Shown here piece after piece: positions 3,038 through 8,960 of a stretch of 42,368 nt of DNA (within the stretch, counting starts at the first letter, position 1; every line of letters starts with the position of its first letter). The DNA is taken from the IMG/VR virus record IMGVR_UViG_3300035698_022899, positions 1-42,368 of that record. One strand, written 5' to 3'. The notes beneath the pieces were generated by a model that was given only the letters and a program-made list of their open reading frames with translations, did no database searches and was not told where the DNA came from. The DNA is from a virus. Position numbers and translations under genes: made by a program.

Positions 3038-4491
3038 GTAAAAGAATATCTACGAACAGGAAAGCTACAACAAGGAAGAAAAAGGATAGTCCTGCATCAA
3101 GGAAGTTAACTGAGTCAACGCATAAGATAAAAGTTAATAGGGAATCACTTAAAGAAGCATATCCTATGGTCGGTGTTGAGACTAGCGAAGATGCTCAATG
3201 GCGTAGTTTGACTCAGGTTGCTCAACGTGACCTCGGTCCATTAACCCAGAAAAGAATGCAAGAGATAGCATTTTACTTATACGATTCAAATCCTCTTGCT
3301 CATAGGATAACTGAAATAACACGCGATTTCGTAGTCGGTGACGGCATACGGTTTAAGGCCAGAAACGAAGCAGTCAATAAAGTGTTAAGAGACTTTTGGG
3401 ATGATCCTGATAATGCATTAGATATAAAGCAAGACTCTAAAGTTCTTGAATTGGGATTATGGGGTGAACAGTGTTATCCGGTATTCGTCAATGCGCACAA
3501 TGGCCATGTAAAACTTGGGTACCTCGATCCAGGTGCGATCAGTAAGGTTGTTGTTGATAAGGATAATCCTGAAAGAACGAAGCAAGTTGTCTGGATGAAA
3601 AGAGGGAAAGCCCAGAAGTTAGATGTTATTAATGTAGATAACAGGAAGAGATCCATCACCGCAGGAAAGTTAGTCGGCGATTGCTTTTATTTTGCGATCA
3701 ATAAAGTCGTGTGGTCAACAAGAGGCAGAAGCGATCTTCTCACTCTGGCGGATTGGATCGACGGATACGATCAATTTCTATTTGCCAGACTAGAAAGAGC
3801 CTTTTACTTAAATAACTTTATATGGGACATCCTGTGTGAAGGAATGTCTAAGGCTGAGATAGAAGAATTTGCTAAGGACATTCGTGCTCCGAAACCGGGA
3901 TCATTAAGAATACACAATGAAAAGATTACGTGGAATATCATTAATACAAAATTAGAAGCAGCCGATGCGTCAGCTGAAGCAAAGCTGTTTAAGAATCAGA
4001 TATTAGGCGGCGCCGGATTCCCGAGCCATTGGTTCGCCGAAGGTGAAAAGACAACACGAGCTACGGCTATGGAGATGGGCCTTCCCACACTGAAGAAGCT
4101 AAAAACACGCCAGAGATATGTTAAATACATGTTTACTCACATATTCAATTTTGTTATTGACCAGGCAATAATACATAAAATGTTACCAGCAAACGTTGAC
4201 AGAACGTTTATCATCGTACCGGCACCAATTATAACCAAGGATGCAAGGGCATTAGCGCTGACCGTAGACAAATTCGCTAACGGAATGTCAACAGCGGTAG
4301 AAAAGAATTGGCTTTCAGAAAGATCGGCAAAAGACGCATTCAGCACATTCATGGTTCAGTTAGGTATCGAGTTAGATGAGCTCGAACAGATGCAGGGCGA
4401 TTACGACGACGCCAAGGGAGGTAATAAAGATGTCAAAAAAGAAGAGCCAAAAGACGACAAGAACAAAGACAAAGACAAAAATGACGTATGA
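3034..4491 (+). CDS. portal protein
   Basis: This 485-residue protein follows the large terminase and starts inside its stop codon (ATGA), with AGGAGGAGG upstream. The N-terminal 35 residues are very basic. The following segment, with RMQEIAFYLYDSNPLAHRI and then FVVGDGI, is typical of portal proteins that form the dodecameric ring at the capsid vertex and the channel for DNA entry. Length and gene order (terS, terL, portal) fit. The C-terminus is a highly charged Lys/Asp tail in DNA that also holds the start of the next gene. Confidence 0.9.
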   Translation: MSKRISTNRKATTRKKKDSPASRKLTESTHKIKVNRESLKEAYPMVGVETSEDAQWRSLTQVAQRDLGPLTQKRMQEIAFYLYDSNPLAHRITEITRDFVVGDGIRFKARNEAVNKVLRDFWDDPDNALDIKQDSKVLELGLWGEQCYPVFVNAHNGHVKLGYLDPGAISKVVVDKDNPERTKQVVWMKRGKAQKLDVINVDNRKRSITAGKLVGDCFYFAINKVVWSTRGRSDLLTLADWIDGYDQFLFARLERAFYLNNFIWDILCEGMSKAEIEEFAKDIRAPKPGSLRIHNEKITWNIINTKLEAADASAEAKLFKNQILGGAGFPSHWFAEGEKTTRATAMEMGLPTLKKLKTRQRYVKYMFTHIFNFVIDQAIIHKMLPANVDRTFIIVPAPIITKDARALALTVDKFANGMSTAVEKNWLSERSAKDAFSTFMVQLGIELDELEQMQGDYDDAKGGNKDVKKEEPKDDKNKDKDKNDV

Positions 4492-5743
4492 TCAGCTATA
4501 TAGTACGTTAGAAACAATCAAAGAGAGTATAGACAGGAGTTATTCAGCTGAGGCTGCCTTAATGCATTTGATGAAGATATCAAAAAACCTCGGGCTCACA
4601 GAAGAAATATCCCCGTGCTTTATTCAGCAGGAGTTTATCGGTGTAGATTGTATCGTAACCAGGAAAGACGGGGCCATTAGCATATCAATAGCAGACGGCG
4701 TCGACGTTACAAATAAGTTCCCAGCAGTGTGTGAATCGTTTTCTACTCTCAAGTATGATGCATTCTCATTCAAGGCAGTGCTCGAAGATCACATCAATGG
4801 CGTTATTAGTAATGAGGCGGTATTATTAGAGAGTATTAATACAGAGACGTTTGACGATGCCACTATAATGGCACAATGTTATGACGTTATTATTAATCCT
4901 ATTAATAACGATGATGTGTCAGGGTTAACATTCAAAGAACGATTCAAAATTCTATCATCGATAGATTTCCCGCAGTCTAAATTCTCTCTTGATATAAGCA
5001 AGCATGTTAACCTTGCCCCAACATCATTTGTCTCTAACCCTGATGAGTTAAAGAAAGCGTTTACTTATTTCACAGAGAACACTGTTCATCCGATGAGGAT
5101 CAATGTTCCGATAGATGGATTGCCGTTCGATCACATGATATCGGCAAATAAGGAGTCACAGCATAAGAATTCTCAATGCATGCAGTGCGAGGCAAAGCCT
5201 ACATTTGAATACTTATGGGCCGAAGGAATGGCCCATGCCTGGTTTTGCAGTGTTCATGCTAAGCAATGGGAAGCAGAACATAAAGATGATGTTAATTCTA
5301 AAAAGGAGATTAAGGACGGCCTTGCAGTATCTAAGTTCTCTGACAATAAGAACCCTAACATATTAAGCGAAAACGTATACCCGTATTCACTTATTCATCA
5401 TTGGTGGAGTGATAGCGAAGTAGAACAATGGGAGTTAATCGTCAAAGATAAAAGTATGCGTTATATACTTAACGCTAATATATCAGAAGCTAACGCTACT
5501 ATATTCTATACTACTAAGTTAACAGAAGAAATATCATTAATAGGTGGTTCAGTTGCTAAGATTCAAGAAAGTAATGGATCGCCATCTTGGATGTCCAGGG
5601 TAACTCACGGAAAAATGCGCATCATCTCAAGCGACAACATACATAAAGAATTTGAGTTTCTGTCTGGATTAGTGTCCGGAGTATGGCACGCCTCCAGAGA
5701 AAAAGACAATAGCTCATTGTGGAATCTGTCACTTAAAGAATAG
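4430..5743 (+). CDS. degenerate ATP-dependent DNA-ligase-like protein of the head module
   Basis: The chosen start is ATG 4430 (437 aa), because AGGGAGGT lies just upstream; it overlaps the portal gene by 62 nt. After a Lys-rich start, the order of segments recalls the nucleotidyltransferase fold of ATP-dependent ligases: a DGVDVTNKFP strand near residue 95, a YDVIINP...LTFKERFKIL segment near 155-180, and an end like the FEGLxxGVWxxxRE...W motif seen in LigD-related phage proteins. A clear catalytic KxDGxR is not visible; the nearest is RKDG. A probable zinc site is present (CMQC, then WFCSVH). Enzymatic ligase activity is doubtful. A structural role beside portal and protease is more likely. 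Confidence 0.45.
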   Translation: MSKKKSQKTTRTKTKTKMTYDQLYSTLETIKESIDRSYSAEAALMHLMKISKNLGLTEEISPCFIQQEFIGVDCIVTRKDGAISISIADGVDVTNKFPAVCESFSTLKYDAFSFKAVLEDHINGVISNEAVLLESINTETFDDATIMAQCYDVIINPINNDDVSGLTFKERFKILSSIDFPQSKFSLDISKHVNLAPTSFVSNPDELKKAFTYFTENTVHPMRINVPIDGLPFDHMISANKESQHKNSQCMQCEAKPTFEYLWAEGMAHAWFCSVHAKQWEAEHKDDVNSKKEIKDGLAVSKFSDNKNPNILSENVYPYSLIHHWWSDSEVEQWELIVKDKSMRYILNANISEANATIFYTTKLTEEISLIGGSVAKIQESNGSPSWMSRVTHGKMRIISSDNIHKEFEFLSGLVSGVWHASREKDNSSLWNLSLKE

Positions 5744-5750
5744 TTTTTTA

Positions 5751-5780
5751 TTGACAGGCAAACGTTTTTGTGTATAGAAT
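5751..5780 (+). promoter_or_regulatory. sigma70-type promoter for the capsid gene
   Basis: A perfect -35 TTGACA at 5751-5756 is followed after 16 nt by TATAGA, or after 18 nt by TAGAAT, within TATAGAAT (5773-5780), with a TGTG extension just upstream. It lies in the 76-nt gap before the protease-capsid gene, giving an untranslated leader of about 30 nt. This would add transcripts for the most abundant virion protein inside the late operon. Confidence 0.75.
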
Positions 5781-5819: not shown

Positions 5820-8507
5820 ATGAAAAAAAAGAATTTACGTTCGCTTATTCCAATTTCACTGCTTGAGAGTAGTGACGGCGGTAGTACATATAAAGTAGTC
5901 ATTATAGAAGAAGGACTTTCTAAGAACGGTCGCTTCTACCCACCCGAAGTACTCAAAAAATCATTACATTTATTCGAGAAAGCAAAAGTATGCTTTTACG
6001 AATTTGCCAACAAACACTTTAATCACCTGCCAGTTAAAGTTGAGGAAATTAGGCCAGAAGGTTTCCCTCTTCAAACTGCCGGGTTTTTAGATAATGTTAA
6101 ATATGAAAGTATTGCCGTCGAAGGCAAGGAAGTCAATGGGCTAACAGGACTGTTGCATCTTTTTGACAATGATAAGATCAACCAATTGAAAGATTTGATA
6201 AAGAGCGCATGGGATAGTGGGCTCAAACAATTGCTTGGCTTATCAATAAATGCAGAAGGACCGCAATCAGTACAATTACTCAATGGTCGTCCGTTGTCAG
6301 TAGTGAATGCTATTAATAAGGTGTTGAGTGTAGATATCGTATCTAATCCGGCTGCTGGCGGCCAACTATTGCAATTGGTAGAAAGTATTAACGAATTTGA
6401 GAGGAGGGACGCAGAGATGTTTAAAGTTATTATTGAAGCTTTAAAAAAGGCACGACCTGATCTGTTAGAGGGATTGAATTTAGAAGAGATAAAAGAAGAA
6501 AATATCTCTACCATATTCGCTACCTTGTTATCAGAGGCAGCTGCCAAGACTAAGGAAGCTCAGACTGCAAAAGAGCAGGCTGATGGATTAGTAAAAGAAA
6601 AGAATGATTTAATTGCTAAGGCTGAAGAAACCGAGCTCGATGAAGCTATCAAAGCAGCCGACGCGGCAATGACAGAACAGGGTGTAAAAGAGAAAGACTT
6701 CCAAGAAGCATCTAAATCTGAATCGATCTTCAAGCAGGTATCAACATTGTTAGAAGCTAAAAAGTTTGCCCATGCTTCTGTCCTTTTGCAGAAATGCTTC
6801 AAGGAATCAAAAGCTCCGGCGAAAAAAGAAGTTCCTGCTATTAAACCGGCAAAAGAAGCGGTTAGCCCAGAACTTCAAAAAAGAATCGCTGCTCTTGAGA
6901 ATGAGAACAAACTTGCTGCATGTGGAAATAATCTTAATGTATTACTTGAAAGCTCAGGTCTTCCCATACCGGTGAAAGATAAGGTTCGCAAGCAGTATGC
7001 AGGTAAGGTTTTTGCAGTAGCAGCATTAACAGAGTCTATTAAGGAAGAGAAAACTACATTGGCAGCATTATCCGATAGTGGCGACATTATCGATCTCGGC
7101 GATGATAATGTAATGAATATTCATGTTCGCAGATCCGGCAACGAGAGAATGCAGGCTAGTCTTGACCTGACACTCGGCGTCGAACCTGAAGAATCTGAAA
7201 AAGAAGAATATGCCGGTGTTGATGGTTTTTCAAGTATTCGAGAAGCATATGTTGCAATCACCGGTGATGTTGAAGTTTCCGGTCAGATGCCAGCAAGTAG
7301 AATGCATGAAGCAGTCACTTCTGGAAGTTTCAGTTACATGCTTGGATATTCTATAAACAGACGGATGCTTAAAGAATATAAAAAGCTCCCTGATTTATGG
7401 AAAAATATTGCCAATACTGTACCATTGAAAGATTTCAAAATGCAGGAATTAATTAGATGGGGCGGATTCGGTGTTTTACCTACAGTTACCGAAGCACGGT
7501 CAACTCAAGGTACTGCAACTGACTCAGCTACTCCTAGTTACCCAGAATTAGGTTTCCCTCTGGATACAGAGCAGACATATGCTATCGCGACTAAAGGTGG
7601 ATTAGTCACCGTAACACGACGGTCTATCATCAATGATGATTTACGTCAGTTACGCAAAGTCCCTACAAAGTTAGCGCGAGCAGCAAGTAGAACTCTGAAC
7701 CAGTTTGTTTTTGATTTGATGTTAGGTTACACAACAAGCGGTATAAACGCTAATGCGTTATGGCCTGATGAGTATGGCGTTGCAAGTCAGACAGCCCTGT
7801 ATGCAACAATCCATAACAACTATGCAACTACAGCGTTGAATTTTGATAATATCAATACTTTAATGAGTAAAGGATATTATCAAGGCGAAGACGGTTATGC
7901 ATCAGCAACAGACGATGCTTCGATCAACGCAAGTGTTACTACAGTGAATGTGACTGCTGGGACCGGAACATACTTTAAAGCTGGCGATATCATCCGAATA
8001 GGCGGCGAGTATATACGCGTATCAAGCGTTTCTACCGATGCCTTAACGGTTGTTAGAGCTCAGTATGGTACAACGGCAACGGCTCATAATATAAGTGGAA
8101 CTACTTATCCGCAGGTATTTAAGATTAGTGATATTCTTGGCTTGCAGAATGCAATACTTTGGGTACCAAGAGGTCTTAAAGGAACAGCTTTGCAGATCGA
8201 GAATTCTACATTGCATCCTGAGAGTGGCGAAAATGCAGTCAATACTCTTAAAGGTGCATTTAAAACAATGGTATCTCCTTACTTGCGCGGTGATGAGAAT
8301 AATTACTACATCAGCTATGGTAAAGATGAGATCGATCTTATTGAAGTCGGTTTCCTTAATGGTCGCGAAGTACCTGAAATATTGGTACAGGACCAGCCAA
8401 CAGTCGGCAATGTATTTGTGTACGATACAATTAGGTATAAAGTTCGCCATGAATATGGTGGGGTTGTGCCTGATTTCCGTGCCTATGCGGCTGGCGTAGT
8501 TGCTTAG
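5820..8507 (+). CDS. prohead protease-scaffold-major capsid polyprotein
   Basis: One open frame of 895 residues contains three normally separate functions. Residues 1-190 look like a prohead protease: LSKNGRFYPPEVL at 33-45, His66/His69, a GLS segment with Ser142 and DIVSNPAAGG at 172-181. Residues 200-465 are charged, Ala/Glu/Lys-rich and coiled-coil-like, as in scaffolds. Residues about 490-895 match the Mu gpT-like capsid pattern (VTRRSIINDDLRQLRKVP near 598-615, then ARAASRTLNQFVFDLML). Residues about 693-770 form an inserted small domain ending in a GTTATAH motif. The ATG at 5820 has only a weak ribosome site. An internal site at 6399-6419 could make scaffold-capsid alone. Maturation cleavage sites are unknown. 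Confidence 0.85.
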   Translation: MKKKNLRSLIPISLLESSDGGSTYKVVIIEEGLSKNGRFYPPEVLKKSLHLFEKAKVCFYEFANKHFNHLPVKVEEIRPEGFPLQTAGFLDNVKYESIAVEGKEVNGLTGLLHLFDNDKINQLKDLIKSAWDSGLKQLLGLSINAEGPQSVQLLNGRPLSVVNAINKVLSVDIVSNPAAGGQLLQLVESINEFERRDAEMFKVIIEALKKARPDLLEGLNLEEIKEENISTIFATLLSEAAAKTKEAQTAKEQADGLVKEKNDLIAKAEETELDEAIKAADAAMTEQGVKEKDFQEASKSESIFKQVSTLLEAKKFAHASVLLQKCFKESKAPAKKEVPAIKPAKEAVSPELQKRIAALENENKLAACGNNLNVLLESSGLPIPVKDKVRKQYAGKVFAVAALTESIKEEKTTLAALSDSGDIIDLGDDNVMNIHVRRSGNERMQASLDLTLGVEPEESEKEEYAGVDGFSSIREAYVAITGDVEVSGQMPASRMHEAVTSGSFSYMLGYSINRRMLKEYKKLPDLWKNIANTVPLKDFKMQELIRWGGFGVLPTVTEARSTQGTATDSATPSYPELGFPLDTEQTYAIATKGGLVTVTRRSIINDDLRQLRKVPTKLARAASRTLNQFVFDLMLGYTTSGINANALWPDEYGVASQTALYATIHNNYATTALNFDNINTLMSKGYYQGEDGYASATDDASINASVTTVNVTAGTGTYFKAGDIIRIGGEYIRVSSVSTDALTVVRAQYGTTATAHNISGTTYPQVFKISDILGLQNAILWVPRGLKGTALQIENSTLHPESGENAVNTLKGAFKTMVSPYLRGDENNYYISYGKDEIDLIEVGFLNGREVPEILVQDQPTVGNVFVYDTIRYKVRHEYGGVVPDFRAYAAGVVA
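6399..6419 (+). promoter_or_regulatory. internal ribosome-binding site and in-frame ATG for scaffold-capsid
   Basis: Inside the polyprotein gene, GAGAGGAGGG at 6399-6408 precedes ATG 6417-6419 by 8 nt. The ATG is codon 200 of the long frame, exactly at the junction between the protease domain and the coiled-coil scaffold. Translation from here would give a 696-residue scaffold-capsid protein. This parallels lambda C/Nu3, where the scaffold is made from an internal start in the protease gene. The internal site is clearly stronger than the one at 5820. Confidence 0.7.
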
Positions 8508-8520
8508 TTTACGATTTCTT

Positions 8521-8558
8521 AAAAGGGCAAGTCTCAGCATAGGGGCTTGCCCTTTTTT
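8521..8558 (+). terminator. Rho-independent terminator after the capsid gene
   Basis: AAAAGGGCAAG (8521-8531) pairs with CTTGCCCTTTT (8546-8556), giving an 11-bp stem with a 14-nt loop, followed by a T-run. It lies 13 nt after the capsid stop codon and would limit read-through into the tail module, or attenuate it. Confidence 0.85.
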
Positions 8559-8594: not shown

Positions 8595-8960
8595 ATGGAA
8601 CACTTGTCAAATAAAACTAGAATGCCTCATGGTGTTAGTGAGAATAACACTATTTTGGCAAAGAGTGACGACGCTACGCTGACACAAGCAGAAATTATGG
8701 ATGCAAAGAAAGTTACACAAAGTGGAACTGGTAAAACTATTACATTCCCGGCTGCAGCTGCTATTTATGCAGGCGTGTCATTAATCATTGCCAGTATTCA
8801 TGCATCATCTGCTACGAACAAAGTTTATGTTGCCGCAGGATATAATGGCGGTGGAGCCAGTTATGGCTATATTACATTACCGGCGTTAGGTTCTGCAATA
8901 GTACAGTGTGATGGAACGTATTGGTCAGTGATAGGCAATATGGACCCAGCCTCATCTTGA
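8595..8960 (+). CDS. capsid decoration-type protein (putative)
   Basis: This 121-residue protein has a strong ribosome site (GAGGAGG) before ATG 8595. After a polar N-terminus comes a compact Ala/Gly/Thr-rich beta pattern (KTITFPAAAAIYAGVSLIIA, then a Gly-rich loop and CDGTYWSVIGN), a repeat style seen in small phage decoration and fibre-tip domains. It sits directly after the capsid gene and its terminator, the usual place of head decoration or stabilisation proteins. No specific family was recognised, so the role is inferred from position. Confidence 0.5.
   Translation: MEHLSNKTRMPHGVSENNTILAKSDDATLTQAEIMDAKKVTQSGTGKTITFPAAAAIYAGVSLIIASIHASSATNKVYVAAGYNGGGASYGYITLPALGSAIVQCDGTYWSVIGNMDPASS

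Follow-up and report, generated by a model that had tools for sequence, protein, structure and literature searches.

A conserved nested start at the protease/scaffold junction of a viral gene encoding prohead protease, scaffold-like region and major capsid protein in one frame

Introduction

A viral gene that joins a T4 gp21-like prohead protease, a scaffold-like region and the major capsid protein in one reading frame carries a strong, conserved internal translation start where the protease meets the scaffold-like region. Two co-terminal proteins are very probably made from its single message, a minority of full-length chains and a majority of scaffold-capsid chains, with release of the protease from the former. 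The gene occupies positions 5820-8507 (plus strand) of the window, by which is meant the whole analysed stretch of 42,368 nt, IMG/VR record IMGVR_UViG_3300035698_022899. Single genes for protease, scaffold and capsid are already known from Gifsy-2 and MD8; what is likely to be new is the occurrence of a T4-gp21-like protease in such a three-in-one gene, together with a conserved nested start as a probable stoichiometry device. A literature search, outside which the full Gifsy-2 paper lay, turned up no account of nested starts in protease-capsid fusions.

The Fused Gene and Its Relatives

The frame runs uninterrupted from ATG to stop over 895 codons, with protease and major capsid domains both inside it, bearing out the single 895-residue frame described in an earlier note made from the window's sequence. 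That note had allowed that separate genes in close relatives would expose the fusion as a sequencing error. Among 43 IMG/VR relatives recovered with the whole protein as query, all full-length members hold the three parts in a single frame, indicating that the fusion is genuine, and a sequencing error was rejected. Relatives recovered with the capsid profile, down to 28% identity, are likewise fused, as are copies on metagenome-assembled genome (MAG) contigs labelled Omnitrophota and Desulfomicrobium. Unfused versions occur in more distant phages, for example as genes 23 and 25 of Streptomyces phage JustBecause. The same kind of protease-capsid fusion is found in the 771-aa 'hypothetical protein' of Microcystis phage Mae-JY22 (L002, 5665-7980), whose junction start is weaker (dG -6.4).

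The gene is flanked by its own sigma70-like promoter, TTGACA-18-TAGAAT (5751-5780, plus strand; 11 of 12 consensus positions), just upstream, and by an intrinsic terminator downstream (8521-8556, plus strand; a 15-pair stem followed by a T run). Similar promoters lie at comparable distances 5' of the homologous genes L004, L005, L006, L045 and L094. Between the portal and fused capsid genes is a 455-aa gene (4376-5743) without any family match that, as listed, overlaps the portal open reading frame (ORF) by more than 100 bases; past the terminator, a 121-aa gene (8595-8960) is matched very weakly by PHROG 122 (head decoration; E 0.03).

Three Regions of the Encoded Protein

By fold model and profile comparison, residues ~10-190 (5847-6389, plus strand) are assigned as a prohead serine protease domain resembling T4 gp21. 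The region matched PHROG 15531, 'head maturation protease' (E 1e-9), and PHROG 207 (E 2.5e-4), and hhalign against a profile of 35 T4 gp21 relatives gave an E-value of 7e-7 and a probability of 92%. In the profile alignment His69, Ser142 and Asp172 are collinear with the invariant His85, Ser140 and Asp168 of T4 gp21, a combination of similarity and residue order that places the domain with the S77 (T4 gp21-like) proteases. The putative catalytic His69 (6024-6026, plus strand), aligned with the histidine of the T4 gp21 NHP motif, and the putative nucleophile Ser142 (6243-6245, plus strand), in a G-L-S motif aligned with the G-V-S serine, are each invariant in 49 sequences. Asp172 (6333-6335, plus strand), the putative third catalytic residue, aligns with the aspartate of VD.V..P.A in T4 gp21; it is invariant in the close clade and variable in distant members.

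A fold model built from the 49-sequence alignment reached pLDDT 85 and pTM 0.80, and Foldseek returned 107 matches to it in BFVD at E <= 1e-3, those with informative names being mostly capsid maturation or prohead proteases (best E about 1e-11). A Foldseek search of the PDB with this model gave no protease structure among the matches listed, that of T4 gp21 (5jbl) included, and HMMER searches with the protease profile brought up no relevant PDB sequence. An earlier, poor model (pLDDT 69), built on 22 close sequences, had no match in the PDB. Stand-alone relatives annotated as capsid maturation protease were found in Arthrobacter and Streptomyces phages. The earlier note had proposed structure prediction for this part and had named a fold unrelated to prohead proteases in residues 1-190 as fatal to its reading; the model of the N-terminal ~190 residues resembles viral capsid-maturation proteases in BFVD and the profiles agree with it, so that objection falls away.

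The major capsid protein domain takes up about residues 470-895 (7227-8504, plus strand), with residues 499-888 matching PF25209, Phage_capsid_4 (E 3.3e-26; 93.6 bits against a cut-off of 27). The Mu gpT family PF10124 scored 12.2 bits, under its cut-off of 20.1, which some relatives exceed; the Mu gpT-like capsid proposed earlier thus stands only as a distant likeness, the family being PF25209. An insertion within the capsid domain (residues 695-760; 7902-8099, plus strand) is shared with tail proteins, resembling PHROG tail fibre 8469 and the minor tail protein 8vjh_A (E 4.6e-5), and is apparently absent from the capsid domain of distant relatives.

Between these domains lie about 265 charged, variable residues (about 200-465; 6417-7214, plus strand), rich in E, K and A and without a family match in profile searches. 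Scaffold segments are typically charged, helical and poorly conserved, and a scaffold role comparable to that of a delta domain is suggested for this region by its position and by precedents elsewhere.

The Internal Start

No Shine-Dalgarno site precedes the first ATG of the window gene (5820-5822, plus strand; dG +1.9 kcal/mol). Where the protease domain ends, AGGAGG (6402-6407, plus strand; dG -12.5) stands 9 nt before an in-frame ATG at codon 200 (6417-6419, plus strand), the second-best in-frame ATG of the ORF having only -3.9. This is the strong site at the domain junction that the earlier note had picked out. All 34 close relatives keep the start (as GTG in L087), with an AGGAGG-like motif 5-10 nt upstream of it, again where the protease domain ends.

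The motif is kept in all three codon phases, reading GAG AGG AGG in the window, AAA GGA GGA in L009 and AAG GAG GAC in L028, so that the encoded residues change from ERR to KGG to KED and the start stays in frame. This argues for selection at the nucleotide level, and a motif driven by its amino acids was rejected on the same phase switching. Shuffling of synonymous codons recreated the site in 1 of 300 trials for the window and in 0 of 300 for each of L006 and L094, a test that is decisive in some ORFs only, since GGNGG frequently re-forms from glycine codons beside the site. A junction site of dG <= -8 kcal/mol was present in 34/34 close relatives, whereas of 770 other in-frame starts 0.65% reached that value.

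All ATG and GTG codons of 51 distinct homologous ORFs were then compared, the expectation being that the strongest start falls at random. It lay at the junction in 41 of the 51 (2.9 expected), comprising 33 of 34 close ORFs (2.2 expected) and 8 of 17 distant lineages; the ten lineages with their best start elsewhere are nearly all distant. In a MAG set independent of the idea's formation, the junction start was best in three of seven fused ORFs (L416, L417 and L423), the other four all being distant copies. These patterns are taken to mean, on sequence evidence, that the internal start is under nucleotide-level selection.

In 33 of the 34 close relatives the internal site outscores the best site of the first start, the exception being a tie in L004, which seems to use a CTG first start. 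The first start is often TTG or lacks a site, yet fair sites occur in L006 (-8.7), L007 (-9.6) and L080 (-8.9), and the weak first start claimed earlier is therefore typical rather than universal. Predicted mRNA accessibility was 0.50 unpaired at the internal start and 0.36 at the first, a difference too small to argue from.

A Model for Protease Stoichiometry

A phage head needs hundreds of shell subunits and only tens of proteases. With the nested start the virus can probably make far more shell than protease. Initiation at 5820 would yield a minority of full-length protease-scaffold-capsid protein and the strong site at 6417 a majority of scaffold-capsid protein (696 aa). Both chains would co-assemble into the procapsid under direction of the scaffold-like segment, the few full-length chains carrying the protease inside, where it would free itself and then remove the scaffold segment, as in the maturation of HK97, lambda and T4. 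A low protease-to-shell ratio would thus be obtained without separate genes. We infer that the cell uses both starts, and likewise infer their ratio and the cleavage steps. A low protease ratio has precedent in T4, with about 55 copies of the protease gp21 to about 580 of the core protein gp22 (PMC9958956).

Alternative Readings

Translation might instead begin only at 5820, every subunit starting at full length and the protease cleaving itself off, with AGGAGG a by-product of an Arg/Gly-rich linker. The single frame has no stop, polyprotein processing is widespread in viruses and, in Gly-rich versions of the gene, the site often reappears after synonymous shuffling, all of which would fit; but such a by-product does not account for a motif kept in three phases (ERR, KGG, KED) and invariably followed 5-10 nt later by an ATG or GTG in frame, nor for a first start that in the window is without a Shine-Dalgarno site and in several relatives is TTG or CTG, and hundreds of protease copies per head would be implied. 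We consider this account very unlikely. An inactive N-terminal protease, retained for structure while cleavage is supplied in trans, is scarcely credible: Asp172 does vary in distant members, but His69 and Ser142 are invariant in the 49 sequences, and none of nine other window proteins scanned matches a protease family.

It is also improbable, to a lesser degree, that the internal start is used and the middle segment is a linker or targeting segment, scaffolding being supplied by a separate, unrecognised gene. The segment's poor conservation and want of a family match would allow this, and the 455-aa gene between portal and capsid, without an assigned function, offers a candidate. Against it, poor conservation, charge and helicity are what scaffold segments typically show, and the same layout is found in Gifsy-2 and in MD8; the MD8 paper identified no additional scaffold gene (PMC8508860). 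Synthesis of two co-terminal proteins, with the scaffold-like segment in both, is the reading preferred here.

Comparison With Known Systems

A 2010 paper by Effantin et al., listed among the references of PMC7762592, reportedly describes for Gifsy-2 a tripartite capsid gene uniting protease, scaffold and capsid. Like the window gene, those of Gifsy-2, Fels-1 and mEp460 (PHROG 133) contain a protease, a middle segment and a PF25209-type capsid in one gene, and their capsid parts are related by sequence to that of the window. Their protease, however, is ClpP-like and of an unrelated fold, whereas the window protease is of the T4 type, and the moderate Shine-Dalgarno-ATG at the protease/scaffold junction of Fels-1 and mEp460, at about -6 kcal/mol, is weaker than that of the window.

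Protease and scaffold share a frame in lambda C/Nu3 and P2 gpO, as protease and scaffold-like region do here, and in lambda the scaffold is produced from a nested start. In both of those systems the capsid is a separate gene, whereas the nested product of the window carries the capsid domain, there being no stop before it. The lambda C/Nu3-like internal start proposed in the earlier note consequently holds for its in-frame position at the protease/scaffold border and for the shared C-terminus, but the product would be scaffold-capsid rather than free scaffold. T4 gp21 (S77; PDB 5jbl) is a stand-alone protease, unlike the fused protease of the window; in its record, T4 gene 21 too has an internal start of translation, but near the N-terminus and not at a scaffold junction.

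In HK97 (gp4/gp5) the scaffold is fused to the capsid and removed by the prohead protease (PMC8508860), which, unlike that of the window, is encoded by a separate gene. For gp5 of Pseudomonas phage MD8 the authors conclude that one gene encodes protease, scaffold and capsid; its protease is ClpP-like, unlike the window's, and the words 'internal' and 'start codon' are both absent from the text of that paper (PMC8508860). The thaumarchaeal proviruses Nvie-Pro1 and NCAV2-Pro1 have a protease fused to the capsid which, unlike the window protease, is chymotrypsin-like or S78; in the part of that paper covered here, from which these statements come, a nested start is not described (PMC6563490).

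Other Protease-Capsid Fusions

Junction starts were also seen in published fusions with ClpP-like proteases (F10, Fels-1, mEp460 and Pasteurella Pmp14) and with S78-like proteases (Stenotrophomonas S1, Bordetella PBb001 and Rhodobacter RcHotPocket). Of 50 ClpP-type IMG/VR relatives, 26 had the ATG with the best site at the junction (4.3 expected), as did 7 of 14 of the S78 type (1.2 expected). For these counts the junction window had been widened after inspection of the data, the sites are weaker and the codon-phase analysis covers the T4-gp21-like class only, so a junction start shared by ClpP-type and S78-type fusions is suggestive rather than proven. ClpP-type and S78-type fusions with a Shine-Dalgarno-ATG at the protease/scaffold border are found at L179-L334, L169-L175 and L003.

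Unfused protease-scaffold genes with an internal start include D_HF5_3 (codon 166, dG -11.3) and Thunderclap gp24 (codon 174, -6.0), and the nested start may therefore predate protease-capsid fusion. We lean, with some reserve, towards the view that a nested start at the junction is a general, previously unrecognised rule of protease-capsid fusions, one that was retained, or arose anew, on proteases of unrelated kinds (T4-gp21-like, HK97/S78-like and ClpP-like) because a fusion has to preserve the low stoichiometry of the protease.

Conclusion

A function can now be assigned to PHROG 29592 and to the matching protein of Microcystis phage Mae-JY22, both previously without one. For annotation, fused genes of this kind probably encode two proteins and not one. 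The nested start would provide a simple answer to the shell-versus-protease number problem posed by three-in-one capsid genes; that it turns up again with unrelated proteases suggests that the ways in which head genes can fuse are constrained.
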